Positions 40,584 to 44,553 of a DNA stretch of 64,000 nt are shown here, piece after piece. The stretch spans positions 2,447,448-2,511,447 of the forward strand of contig NZ_CP101750.1 in assembly GCF_026810505.1 (NCBI RefSeq), read 5' to 3'. The position numbers were made by a program, and so were the translations under genes. The stretch is from Streptomyces sp. Je 1-369 (GTDB lineage Bacteria; Actinomycetota; Actinomycetes; Streptomycetales; Streptomycetaceae). The notes beneath the pieces are model-generated. The model did not search any database. It saw only the letters and a list, made by a program, of their open reading frames with translations, and was not told the DNA's origin. Positions within the stretch are counted from its first letter, which is position 1. Each line of letters begins with the position of its first letter.

Positions 40584-41783
40584 GTGCTGACCCGTTTCGC
40601 CATCGCCCCCAGCGGCTTCAAGGAGTCGCTGTCCGCGAGCTCCGCGGCCGAGGCCATCGCCGCGGGGGTACGCCGTGTCGTCCCGCACGCCGAGACCGAT
40701 CTGATCCCGCTGGTGGACGGCGGCGAGGGCACGGCCCGCGCGCTGGCCTCCGCGAGCGGCGGCCGCCTCGTCGCGCTGCCCGCGACCGGCCCCGTGGGCC
40801 AGCCCATCGGCACCCACTTCGCCCTGCTGCCCGACGGCACGGCGGTCGTCGAGATGGCGGCCGTGGCCGGTCTCTCGCTGGTCCCCCGCGATCTGCGCGA
40901 TCCGGGTGCCACCACGACGTACGGCGTCGGCGAGCTGATCCGCGCGGCGCTCGACACGGGCGCCCGCCGCATCCTCGTCGGCTGCGGCGACTCGGGCACC
41001 TCGGACGGCGGCGCGGGCGCCCTGCAAGCCCTGGGCGCCAGACTCCTGGATCTCGACGGCTGGGAACTGCCGCGCGGCGGGCGGGAGTTGACGCGCCTGA
41101 ACCGCATCGACCCGAGCGGCATCGATCCGCGCATCGCGGACACCGAGATCCGCGTCGCCTGCAACCCGTACAACGTCCTGTGCGGCAAGCACGGCGTCGC
41201 CCGCGTCTTCGGGCCCCAGAAGGGCGCGACGCCCCTCCAGGTCGAGCGGCTGGCCGCCGCCCTTGAGCACTGGGCCCACCTCCTCACGCGGGACCTCCAC
41301 GTGCGCGCCGACCTCTTCGAGGGACCCGGCACGGGCGCGTCGGGCGGACTCGGCGCCGGGCTCGCCGCTCTCGGCGCCGCCCTGCTCCCCCGCTTCGACG
41401 TCCTGCTCGACCGGATCGACCTCGACGCACGGCTCGCCCGCGCCGACCTCGTCATCACCGCGGAGGGCGCCCTCGACCACCAGACGCCGCGCGGCAAGGT
41501 CCCGGCCGAGGTGGCCCGCCGCGCCAAGCTGTCGGGCAGGCCCGTCCTGGTGCTCGCGGGCACGATCGGGGACGGCGCGCACACCGTGCGCTCCGTCGGC
41601 GTCGACGCCTACAGCTCGATCCTGCCCGCCCCGATGTCGATGACCGAGGCGCTCGGCAGGGGCGGCGAGTTCCTCACCGACGCGACGGAGCGGGCCCTGC
41701 GAATGATCCGGCTCGGCTCACGCCTGCCCACTCATGCGGCGGCGCCGGTGTCCGGCACGCAACGCCCGTCCTCTGTGCGGTAG
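40584..41783 (+). CDS. Glycerate kinase (GlxK family)
   Basis: Phosphorylates D-glycerate, 399 residues. Motifs: APSGFKESLSA at the start, PLVDGGEGTA, VGCGDSGTSDGGAGALQALG, VARVFGPQKGA and ADLVITAEGALDHQTPRGKVP, all diagnostic of this kinase family. GTG 40584 follows TGGAGA. It is probably co-transcribed with the transporter upstream, giving an uptake-and-phosphorylation module. Its last 52 bp overlap the convergent cysteine-desulfurase-like gene. Confidence 0.92.
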   Translation: MLTRFAIAPSGFKESLSASSAAEAIAAGVRRVVPHAETDLIPLVDGGEGTARALASASGGRLVALPATGPVGQPIGTHFALLPDGTAVVEMAAVAGLSLVPRDLRDPGATTTYGVGELIRAALDTGARRILVGCGDSGTSDGGAGALQALGARLLDLDGWELPRGGRELTRLNRIDPSGIDPRIADTEIRVACNPYNVLCGKHGVARVFGPQKGATPLQVERLAAALEHWAHLLTRDLHVRADLFEGPGTGASGGLGAGLAALGAALLPRFDVLLDRIDLDARLARADLVITAEGALDHQTPRGKVPAEVARRAKLSGRPVLVLAGTIGDGAHTVRSVGVDAYSSILPAPMSMTEALGRGGEFLTDATERALRMIRLGSRLPTHAAAPVSGTQRPSSVR

Positions 41784-43105
41784 CTCCAGCGCGCACCGTC
41801 CGCCACCAGTTCCTTGACGGCGCGCACGAAACGCTCGACGTGCTCGTCGGGGGTGCCCGCGCCGAAGCTCACGCGGATCGCGTTCAGCGACTTCTCGCCG
41901 GGCGCGGCCTCGGGGGCGCCGCACTCGCCGGGCTCGTCGGGCTCGCTGTCGAGGAGGGTGCGCACCAGCGGGTGGGCGCAGAACAGGCCGTCGCGTACGC
42001 CGATGCCGTACTCGGCGGAGAGCGCGGCGGCGAAGTGCGAGCTGTTCCAGCCGTCCACAACGAAGGAGATGACGCCCACGCGCGGCGCGTCGTCGCCGAA
42101 GAGGGAGAGGATCCGCACCTGCGGCACCTCGGCGAGGCCCTCGCGGACCTCCTTGATGAGGTGCTGCTCGCGGGCGACGAGCTCGTCGAAGCCCGCGTCG
42201 GTGAGCGCCTTGCAGGCGGAGGCGATGGAGTAGACGCCGATGACGTTCGGGGATCCGGCCTCGTGGCGGGCGGCGGTGTCGTGCCACTCCACGTCCACGC
42301 CTCCGTCGGCACGTCGCGCCACCTTCCGCGAGGCGCCGCCGCCCGCGAGGTAGGGCTCGGCGTCGCGCAGCCAGTCGGAGCGGCCCGCGAGGACCCCGGA
42401 GCCGAACGGCGCGTACAGCTTGTGCCCGGAGAACGCGACCCAGTCGACGTCCAACTCGGCGATGGAGACGGGGTGGTGGGGCGCGAGCTGCGCGGCGTCG
42501 AGGACGATGCGGGCGCCGTGCGCGTGGGCGGCGGCGGCCAGCTCGCGCACCGGCCACAGCTCGCCGGTGACGTTGGAGGCGCCGGTGACGCAGACGAGGG
42601 CGGGGCCGTAGGGGTCGCGGTCGGCGAGGGCGCGCTCCAGGGTGTGTACGGCCTCCTCGGGGGTGCGCGGCGCGTTGAGGTACGTCACCCGCGCGTCCCG
42701 CCACGGCAGCAGCGAGGCGTGGTGCTCGGTCTCGAAGACGAAGACCTGGCAGTCGGCGGGCAGGGCGGAGGCGAGGAGGTTCAGGGAGTCGGTGGTGGAG
42801 CGGGTGAAGACGACCTGGTCGCCCTCGCGGCAGCCGAGGAACTCGGCGACGGTCTTCCGGGAGTTCTCGAAGAGGTCGGTCGACAGCTGCGAGAGGTACC
42901 CGGCGCCGCGGTGCACGCTGCCGTAGTACGGGGCGTAGGCGGCCACGTCGTCCCAGACGCGCTGCAGCGCCGGCGCGCTCGCCGCGTAGTCGAGCGCCGC
43001 GTAGCTCACCTCGCCGCCGGTGACCAGCGGGACGGTGACGTCACGGCCGAGGACGGCGAGCGGGGCACAGACGGACGGGTCGACGGCGACACTGGAAACA
43101 GACAT
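41732..43105 (-). CDS. Cysteine desulfurase-like PLP enzyme (SufS/CsdA branch)
   Basis: Class V aminotransferase fold, 457 residues. PLP lysine Lys229 in AFSGHKLYAPFG; Cys376 in RDGLFCAHP stands where SufS has its persulfide cysteine (HHCAQP). The substrate may be cysteine or a related sulfur amino acid; that is not settled by sequence. GGGAG lies 6 nt before ATG 43105. A SAM-IV riboswitch and a small reading frame in its 300-nt leader tie it to sulfur metabolism. Confidence 0.88.
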   Translation of the reverse strand: MSVSSVAVDPSVCAPLAVLGRDVTVPLVTGGEVSYAALDYAASAPALQRVWDDVAAYAPYYGSVHRGAGYLSQLSTDLFENSRKTVAEFLGCREGDQVVFTRSTTDSLNLLASALPADCQVFVFETEHHASLLPWRDARVTYLNAPRTPEEAVHTLERALADRDPYGPALVCVTGASNVTGELWPVRELAAAAHAHGARIVLDAAQLAPHHPVSIAELDVDWVAFSGHKLYAPFGSGVLAGRSDWLRDAEPYLAGGGASRKVARRADGGVDVEWHDTAARHEAGSPNVIGVYSIASACKALTDAGFDELVAREQHLIKEVREGLAEVPQVRILSLFGDDAPRVGVISFVVDGWNSSHFAAALSAEYGIGVRDGLFCAHPLVRTLLDSEPDEPGECGAPEAAPGEKSLNAIRVSFGAGTPDEHVERFVRAVKELVADGARWSYRTEDGRCVPDTGAAA

Positions 43106-43201
43106 GGCGAACTCCCGTAAGAGACAAGTGAGTTCACTGCGACGACGGCCGCGCTCGATCCATGCGGCGGTGCAGTGATGAAGAGAAGAAGGGTGCGCGG
43201 A

Positions 43202-43219
43202 AAGGGGCCGAAGGCCCTA
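43202..43219 (-). terminator. Hairpin after the six-codon frame, possible attenuator
   Basis: GGGCC-TTC-GGCCC with partly paired flanks, followed by CTTTCC. Its left arm overlaps the TAG stop of the short reading frame, so a ribosome on that frame would open the hairpin. Confidence 0.55.
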
Positions 43220-43237
43220 GCACATTCGCTTGCTCAC
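43217..43237 (-). CDS. Six-codon leader reading frame, VSKRMC
   Basis: GTG start with a good ribosome site (AAGGGAG, 7 nt away), then Ser-Lys-Arg-Met-Cys and TAG. It lies between the SAM-IV riboswitch and the gene it controls. Ending on Met and Cys codons just before a hairpin suggests a sensor of charged tRNA-Met/Cys. It could be chance; only conservation would tell. Confidence 0.5.
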   Translation of the reverse strand: MSKRMC

Positions 43238-43292
43238 GAGACTGCTCCCTTGAGGACCAGGACCCCAGGGCTGTGACATTCACCGATGTCCA

Positions 43293-43413
43293 GGGGTCCG
43301 CGCTTGCCATACGCCTCGCTGCGTACGGCCTGGTCTTCACCCGGGGCACCCCGCCACGGACGGAGGGTTGCCGGACAGCGGGCCGGGGCCGTAGTCGCTG
43401 TCACTCATGACCT
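43293..43413 (-). ncRNA. SAM-IV riboswitch
   Basis: On the minus strand the 121-nt segment contains, in order, AGGTCATGAGTGACAGCG, the CCGGCAACCCTCC core, GGGGTGCCCCGGGTGAAGACC and a closing GGCAAGCGCGGACCCC, which matches the SAM-IV consensus as I know it, including the outer P1 pairing (GGTC with GACC) and the pseudoknot region. SAM-IV aptamers occur in actinomycetes before sulfur-metabolism genes and lower expression when S-adenosylmethionine is high. Confidence 0.88.
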
Positions 43414-43488: not shown

Positions 43489-44553
43489 TCAGCGGTTGCT
43501 GGCGGCCACCCAGCGCTCCAGGGCCCGCTTCGCGGCCCCCGAGTCGATCGCCCGCGCCGCCTTCGCCATACCGGCGCCGATCTGCTCCACGAGGGGCTGA
43601 CCGGTGGGTGCGAGGGCGACCAGCGCCGCCGCCGAGTTCAGCAGCACCGCGTCCCGCACCGGCCCGGTCTCCCCGTCCAGGAGCCGCAGCGCGACCTCCG
43701 CGTTGTACGAGGCGTCGGCGCCCCGCAGCGCCTCGACGGGCACCAGGTCGATCCCGACGTCCCGCGGGTCGAACGCCTCCTCGCGCACGGCACCGTCCCG
43801 CACCACCCAGATCCGCGAGGTCGCGGTCGTCGTCAGCTCGTCGAGCCCGTCGTCGCCGCGGAAGACCAGCGACGAGTTGCCCCGCTCGGCGAAGACCCCG
43901 GCCACGATGGGCGCCATCCGCGGGTCGGCGACACCGACCGCCTGGGCGCGCACCTTCGCCGGGTTGGTGAGCGGGCCGAGGAGGTTGAAGACGGTACGGA
44001 TGCCGAGCTGGCTGCGGGCGCCGCCCGCGTGGCGCAAAGCGGGGTGGAACTTCACGGCGAAGCAGAAGGTGATGCCCGCCTCGTCGGCGACCTCGACCAC
44101 CCGCTGGGGGGTGAGGTCCAGGTTGACGCCGAGCTTCTCCAGGACGTCGGAGGCGCCGGACGCGCTGGAGGCGGCGCGGTTGCCGTGCTTGACGACCTTC
44201 GCGCCGGTGCCCGCGACGACGATCGCGGACATGGTCGAGATGTTGACGGTCTTGGCGCCGTCGCCGCCGGTGCCGACGATGTCGACGCTCGGGCCCGGCA
44301 CGTCGATGACGTTGGCGTGCGCGTACATGGCGCGTACCAGACCGGAGATCTCCTCGACGGTCTCGCCCTTGGCCCGCAGCGCGACCACGAAGCCCGCGAT
44401 CTGGGCGTCGGTGGCCTCACCGCGCATGATGCGGTCCATGGCCCACGCCGTGTCGTCGGCGCTCTGGTCGCGGCCGTCGAGCAGGCCGTTCAGTACGTCG
44501 GGCCAGGAACGGTCCGCCGCGGTGTCGCCTCCTGCGGGGGTCACAGCGTTCAT
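43489..44553 (-). CDS. trpD: Anthranilate phosphoribosyltransferase
   Basis: Second committed step of Trp synthesis: anthranilate plus PRPP. The 354-residue protein has the PRPP-binding [14 protein letters not shown], anthranilate-binding KHGNRAASS and [10 protein letters not shown] motifs of the family. AGGAG precedes ATG 44553. It is 32 kb from trpEG and stands alone beside the respiratory cluster, the usual actinomycete arrangement. No Trp leader peptide is seen in its 163-bp upstream region. Confidence 0.96.

Follow-up and report, generated by a model that had tools for sequence, protein, structure and literature searches.

We analysed a 64,000-nucleotide stretch of Streptomyces DNA, hereafter called the window, in which a gene for a class V aminotransferase is preceded on the minus strand by a SAM-IV riboswitch aptamer, a six-codon frame with its own Shine-Dalgarno (SD) site, and a hairpin that overlaps the stop codon of this frame (Table 1). 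The trpD gene (43489..44553) lies upstream of the leader. The product of the regulated gene matched PF00266 with 250.6 bits, and its score against the SufS model TIGR01979 was 251.6 bits, below the cut-off of 475.1; the gene has an SD site of its own (43116..43112, minus strand) and begins with the ATG at 43105. A first-pass annotation of this DNA had proposed a SAM-IV aptamer here, and a covariance-model search with RF00634 bore this out, giving a full-length match on the minus strand of 111.3 bits (E 1.1e-19) against a gathering threshold of 38. This was the sole Rfam match in the whole window at the gathering threshold. The aptamer is predicted to bind SAM and would thereby lower expression. 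The genome's second SAM-IV element (7904032-7904141) has an SD site and a start codon directly behind it, without the six-codon frame; by reading the sequence, this start opens a small protein of about 97 residues.

Table 1. Features of the aminotransferase leader and gene, in window positions
Feature	Positions	Strand	Evidence
SAM-IV riboswitch aptamer (RF00634)	43295..43412	-	cmscan, model 1-116 of 116
3' strand of P1 (GACC) with its neighbour, GACCAGG, able to pair with CCTGGTC downstream (anti-P1)	43329..43335	-	RNAalifold consensus, 30 leaders
Switch hairpin, GGACCCC...GGGGTCC	43260..43299	-	Consensus stem
CCTGGTC, alternative partner for the 3' strand of P1	43255..43261	-	Consensus fold and leader survey
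SD site AGGGAG of the short frame, proposed riboswitch target	43245..43250	-	Sequence; frameless leaders
Six-codon frame, GTG AGC AAG CGA ATG TGC TAG (VSKRMC-stop)	43217..43237	-	Orthologous leaders
Invariant core codons of the frame, CGA-ATG	43223..43228	-	Unbiased leader set
Hairpin GGGCC-TTC-GGCCC, first base being the G of the frame's stop codon	43205..43217	-	Leader survey, covarying arms
C-rich, G-poor stretch 3' of the stop hairpin, possible Rho loading region	43165..43204	-	Base counts
Aminotransferase class V, SufS-like, 457 aa, regulated gene	41732..43105	-	PF00266; SufS TIGR01979

Conservation of the frame was measured in two sets of leaders. The unbiased set comprises the 80 Streptomyces loci most similar to the aminotransferase protein, a choice independent of the leader, while a larger set of 131 distinct leaders from all sources was found with a regular expression demanding CGAATG and is biased to that extent; this survey also missed two leaders that do carry the frame (L027 and L051). 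Leaders are related to one another, and counts of them are not independent. In the unbiased set, 79 of the 80 leaders carried a CGA-ATG frame of the six-codon kind, the exception being S. flaveus, and the CGA-ATG pair was invariant in all 79. The short frame of the first-pass annotation held up among orthologues. The family consensus peptide is xxKRMR-stop, with 18 peptide variants among the 131 leaders, whose start codons were GTG (116), ATG (8) and TTG (7) and whose stop codons were TAG (128), TGA (2) and TAA (1). In the window, the GGGAG of the SD site lies 7 nt before the GTG start, and GGAG stood 5 to 9 nt before the start in all 65 leaders parsed by a script whose narrow regular expression missed many loci. 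The motif with at most one mismatch occurred in 271 of 295 Streptomyces genomes, a count that includes some chance matches, as a backward control also matches occasionally. Other genera of the Streptomyces family contributed 34 loci, 14 of them best-scoring matches and 20 picked by hand from the list of matches; the frame was present in 16 of these, from nine genera.

Positional entropy, calculated over the 127 distinct leaders with a 21-nt frame, was close to zero across most of the frame compared with about 0.9-1.9 bits in most flanking columns; the CGAATG columns of this profile are fixed by the regular expression, and their unbiased measure is the 79 of 80 loci given above. The third base of codon 6 was by far the most variable frame position (1.45 bits), and codons 1-3 varied mildly. 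Two leaders have TGA as codon 6; the former TAG behind it has decayed to CAG in one and TGG in the other, and a stem remains. Both CGA and TAG are rare in the 80 orthologous aminotransferase genes, where CGA makes up 1.4% of Arg codons and TAG 3 of the 80 stops; the TAG of the frame may perhaps be held by the hairpin, which takes its first G from it. From its pattern of conservation, the short stretch behaves like a frame that is translated, and we infer that it is.

Between the aptamer and the frame lies the region that would act as a switch. An RNAalifold consensus of 30 chosen leaders contains a GACCA:TGGTC pairing that competes with P1, any one of its five pairs being broken in at most one row, and in the switch hairpin of this fold one pair changes from C-G to T-A in 4 of the 30 rows. 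The TGGTC/T element was correctly placed in 109 of the 131 leaders. Among the 21 without TGGTC or TGGTT, nine have CCTGGGTC, L171 has another variant and 11 lack the element; all ten variant leaders keep the switch hairpin. The switch hairpin is missing in 11 of the 131 leaders, in which the SD sits close behind the pseudoknot strand of the aptamer. When the anti-P1 pairing was enforced in folding, the SAM-free state had a more accessible SD, by prediction, than the state with P1 formed in 88 of 109 leaders; the gain exceeded 0.2 in 55, and a difference of that size in the opposite direction was seen in one. This comparison presupposes the anti-P1 structure, and 22 of the 131 leaders fall outside it (the 21 without TGGTC/TGGTT, and one skipped by a check on a neighbouring base). 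In the window's own leader, the predicted accessibility was nearly the same in the two states (0.28 versus 0.26), and folds without enforced pairs gave only a weak trend (76 of 131 leaders).

The best evidence that the riboswitch would act on the SD of the frame comes from leaders that have no frame. In S. flaveus, the start of the main gene stands directly behind the equivalent SD, and the same arrangement was found in 13 of the 34 loci from other genera, which otherwise carried the six-codon frame (16), long Cys-tailed leader peptides (3) or other short frames (2). Since the main gene of such leaders starts at the very place behind the aptamer where the short frame starts in the others, the aptamer would act on the SD found there, and the riboswitch probably gates whether the six codons are translated.

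The hairpin that the first-pass annotation had placed across the stop codon of the frame was also found to be conserved. A stem of four GC-pair equivalents lying at most 5 nt from the stop codon occurred in 117 of the 131 leaders compared with 7.6% of shuffles; control windows gave 16 to 29 of 131 at three downstream positions and 51 of 131 at an upstream one, which falls in the switch region. Leaving out the stop-codon G reduced the count to 70 of 131 at the same score. The arms change in a compensatory manner (GGGC/GCCC, GAGGCC/GGCCTC, GAGGC/GCCTC and GGCCG/CGGCC), and in most of the 14 leaders that lack the short stem, a longer stem or an insert takes its place, as judged by eye. The 30-leader consensus fold does not contain the stop hairpin; in it, the G's of the SD pair with the 3' side of the hairpin, and the 5' arm of the hairpin pairs with bases before the start of the frame. 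In five leaders (L021, L025, L075, L008 and L149), long inserts with inverted repeats lie inside the hairpin, right after TAGGGC, and are mostly followed by a second CAGGGC...GCCC-like copy; these inserts may be small mobile elements that target this hairpin.

The hairpin was rejected as an intrinsic terminator. No terminator-like site was found between positions 43000 and 43700, and a U-tract after the hairpin was nearly absent, with at least five T within 8 nt in 1 of 117 leaders and at least four in 20 of 117. Attenuation by the frame, as had been proposed for this leader, was therefore not supported in its classical form, and a run of regulatory codons was likewise absent from the frame, which holds one Met codon only in the 131 leaders. 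The 40 nt after the hairpin are instead skewed in composition, with C at least twice as frequent as G in 103 of 117 leaders compared with 52 of 400 windows from coding sequence, a control that is not untranslated region; in the wider stretch from 22 to 92 nt after the stop, the same skew was seen in only 47 of 131 leaders. Such a C-over-G skew would suit Rho.

Taken together, these features suggest a relay: SAM-IV, as an OFF switch, would decide whether the six codons are translated, and the frame would pass this decision on to the gene. At low SAM, the 3' strand of P1 would pair with CCTGGTC and leave the SD of the frame free, and a ribosome would translate the frame, perhaps slowed by CGA, a codon seldom used. 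On reaching the final codons and the stop, this ribosome would cover the 5' arm of the overlapping hairpin and stay close behind RNA polymerase, and premature termination in the C-rich leader, probably Rho-dependent, would be suppressed. At high SAM, P1 would form and mask the SD, no ribosome would load, the hairpin would form and transcription would end early. We put the relay from OFF switch through frame to downstream gene at about even chances. Its parts differ in strength: the gating of the frame is the firmer step, the frame might be coupled to termination, and the slowing of the ribosome at CGA-AUG is likewise something that might occur. A ribosome on the frame would cover the hairpin but not the whole C-rich stretch, which counts against the Rho part of the model. 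In S. clavuligerus, the aminotransferase-V gene behind a SAM-IV element is reported to rank among the most extreme cases of premature transcription units, the ratio of premature-transcript to coding-sequence reads falling more steeply there than at nearly all others (PMC8269248), an observation made on the gene and not on the six-codon frame.

An alternative to a frame that merely relays the decision of the riboswitch is that the frame is itself a second sensor. A ribosome stalled at CGA-AUG when charged Met-tRNA, or the tRNA that reads CGA, is scarce would keep the hairpin open, and SAM and methionine charging would be read in series. The invariance of CGA and AUG in the 79 unbiased frames speaks for such a sensor, and the invariant Met codon 5 leaves room for a methionine input, although there is a single internal Met codon, and attenuators usually carry several regulatory codons. 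Further support came from SAM-IV leaders outside the Streptomyces family. We collected 105 such loci, consisting of 25 best-scoring matches and 80 picked by hand from among the better matches listed, and presumptively assigned their gene types by N-terminal motifs: 51 metY, 31 aminotransferase-V and 23 unclassified. One locus of the metY type (L091), checked against NCBIfam, encoded an O-acetylhomoserine/O-acetylserine sulfhydrylase, and metY enzymes make homocysteine, the precursor of methionine. Short frames with an in-frame Arg-Met pair were found at eight of these loci, in six families and all before metY (8 of 51), with none before the 31 aminotransferase-V genes or the 23 unclassified ones. 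All eight frames use CGA-ATG, and at none of the 105 loci was the Arg of such a pair encoded by a different codon; from shuffles, a pair with CGA would be expected at 0.17 of the 105 loci in total, and one with any other given Arg codon at 0.14 to 0.30. The fact that simple occupancy by a ribosome fits the arrangement equally well weighs against the second sensor, and we consider it unlikely.

The eight metY-leader peptides (VSCQRMPRR, MTCRMPF, VTCRMRR, MCCCRMN, VNHHRMRR, MCRCRMTGVAGA, MRSCRMHTR and MCCCCRMTRR) have Cys directly before Arg in six cases, and some other metY leaders have Cys-only frames behind the SAM-IV element. At four loci, three of one family (L177, L178 and L180) together with L225, the SAM-IV aptamer is followed by a long leader peptide ending in a Cys-containing motif; the peptides of L177, L180 and L225 pass the cut-off of the putative leader peptide family NF042934 of NCBIfam, and that of L178 falls below it. 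The two sulfur sensors in series that were first imagined for the window thus do occur as an arrangement, at these four loci and not in the window, and among the leaders compared a SAM-IV element in series with a frame of Cys or Met codons is a recurrent design in other actinobacteria. Next to these, the Streptomyces frame resembles a related frame from which Cys has disappeared and in which Arg-Met has stayed. The frames of Streptomyces and of the metY leaders would then share common descent, and convergence is possible. It is conceivable, and we put it forward tentatively as a somewhat unlikely proposal, that CGA-AUG serves specifically to slow the ribosome or to sense methionine in the very short leader frames that actinobacteria place behind SAM-IV elements before different sulfur genes (metY in several families, the aminotransferase in the Streptomyces family), the SAM level and the speed of translation at the dicodon being read in series and the neighbouring Cys having been lost in the Streptomyces family. 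Its recurrence before another gene raises the question of whether one codon pair can set the speed of a ribosome, or sense methionine, in a natural regulator. At four further loci (L255, L260, L264 and L265; groups f21g59 and f21g82), the SAM-IV element seems to precede genes with secreted-like or lipoprotein-like starts, a target type that differs from both metY and aminotransferase-V.

We also considered the possibility that the conserved stretch is an RNA element, acting for example through an extended stem in which TGCG pairs with CGCA further downstream, or through pairing of the consensus-fold kind, and that the open frame is incidental. CGA never varies despite being a rare codon, as would be expected of such an element, and a match of at least 4 nt between the 3' part of the frame and the 24 nt after the hairpin was present in 85 of 117 leaders, compared with 45 on average, and never more than 59, in 200 shuffles. 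However, the outer TGCG/CGCA stem around the hairpin, while above shuffles, does not track codon changes: CGCA is missing in 43 of 112 leaders with TGCG, and it is kept in all four window-related leaders with TGTG, in three of which it is not required. Moreover, the SD, start codon, spacing and stop act as a unit of translation, the TAG is lost after a new TGA has arisen, and codon 6 wobbles freely. We therefore regard an RNA element with an incidental frame as quite improbable.

Another possibility is that the frame boosts translation of the main gene by termination and reinitiation, or stabilises the mRNA, without control of transcription. In the leader of M. tuberculosis ppe2, the signal of a B12 riboswitch is relayed by reinitiation (PMC11260477). 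In the Streptomyces leaders, however, the median distance from the stop of the frame to the start of the gene is 111 nt (65 to 260), the two stand in no preferred reading frame to each other (27/24/26 of 77 loci) and a separate SD serves the main gene, which makes a role in reinitiation or stabilisation very unlikely. The same random distribution of frames makes fusion of the short frame to the main gene by read-through or frameshifting unlikely.

The window had further been read as ending its frame in Met-Cys, with a Cys codon before the stop that senses charged Cys-tRNA. Codon 6 in the 80 unbiased loci was CGA in 44, CGT in 20, CGC in 13, TGC in one and TGA in one, with one locus frameless, so that Arg occupies this position in 77 of 80; in the 131 leaders it was CGA (74), CGC (26), CGT (25), CGG (1), TGC (2), TGT (1) or TGA (2). 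The exact Cys form of the frame was found in 5 of the 295 Streptomyces genomes, and the Met-Cys ending is thus a rare variant. Four of these five genomes are among the window's nearest relatives. When 115 loci were compared by gene DNA, the nearest relatives had TGC (L001, S. atriruber), TGA (L002, S. silaceus) or TGT (L123 and L271) at codon 6, and the further relatives shown had CGN. The fifth Cys-form genome (G335, locus L270) ranks 91 of 114 by gene identity, and because it does not lie near the window, Cys or TGN at codon 6 must have arisen at least twice. Cys at codon 6 is tolerated but nowhere common. Despite the TGC codon of the window, the repeated origin of the Cys form and the existence of Cys-codon frames behind SAM-IV elements in other actinobacteria, control of an attenuator through charged Cys-tRNA is scarcely credible, because codon 6 is Arg in nearly all unbiased loci, the exact Cys form is so rare, a near relative has TGA in its place and there is no intrinsic terminator, and we rejected it. 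Of the two sensors proposed in series, the SAM-IV element followed by a conserved frame and hairpin remains as two regulatory parts, and the cysteine reading falls away; across Streptomyces leaders, the frame, its Met codon and the hairpin are kept, and the Cys codon is not. Regulatory codons read off a single genome can mislead.

The proposed relay can be set beside known systems. Like other SAM-IV riboswitches, the element of the window matches its model over the full length and lies upstream of a gene for sulfur metabolism. It is unlike them in having a six-codon frame and a hairpin between the aptamer and the gene; outside the Streptomyces family, the gene starts at most 100 nt from the aptamer in 63 of 82 classified loci, including all 31 of the aminotransferase-V type. 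Cys-rich leader peptides, reportedly described for mycobacteria and other actinobacteria by Canestrari in 2020 and covered by NCBIfam NF042934, resemble the Streptomyces frame in being short frames before an actinobacterial sulfur gene, some of them also behind SAM-IV, whereas the Streptomyces frame has no conserved Cys near its stop, is six codons long and contains an invariant Arg-Met. That sulfur genes of actinobacteria have Cys leader peptides was predicted in 2005 (PMC1262725), and in M. smegmatis one such peptide frame has been seen to be occupied by ribosomes (PMC4633059).

Within Streptomyces itself, we take SCO2146, a cysteine desulfurase gene of S. coelicolor, to be the probable orthologue of the window's aminotransferase gene. 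In an ArgR study, SCO2146 and the threonine synthase gene SCO4293 have the same expression type (PMC3293853). A study of S. lividans places a SAM-IV element before the cysteine desulfurase gene SLIV_26975, and its threonine biosynthesis genes are preceded by a SAM element (PMC8079986), so that the pair of cysteine desulfurase and threonine synthase genes may be co-regulated by SAM. The same text reports eight leader peptides, among them that of metL, which contains RRMC; the six-codon frame is not mentioned in the excerpts, although the genus is the same (PMC8079986). A search of the window's own genome for metL-like peptides gave chance matches only, and the Cys-Arg-Met frame pattern was not found there. 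In the literature on SAM-IV and upstream frames, on SAM-IV in Streptomyces and on SCO2146, mostly open papers covered largely by title, we found no description of the six-codon frame, from which its absence from print does not follow.

Close parallels exist in M. tuberculosis, where riboswitches acting on upstream frames together with Rho or reinitiation are already known (PMC12810186, PMC11260477). At Mbox-rv1805A, the target of a translational riboswitch platform is a conserved upstream frame, and termination in the leader depends on Rho (PMC12810186). This system, like the Streptomyces leader, has a conserved frame behind the aptamer. It differs in that its ligand is Mg2+ and not SAM, its frame is annotated as the gene rv1805A, its authors place the main termination site before the frame, and the relay was tested by experiment, where ours is one that we infer (PMC12810186). 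In the second system, the B12 riboswitch masks the SD of uPPE2, whose translation is needed for the gene; reinitiation there takes place at an overlapping AUGA stop-start, unlike the Streptomyces leaders, in which stop and start are about 100 nt apart and in any frame (PMC11260477). Should the relay prove right, a frame of only six codons would carry the output of a SAM riboswitch, and a design so far described in M. tuberculosis, for Mg2+ and for B12, would extend to Streptomyces and to SAM.
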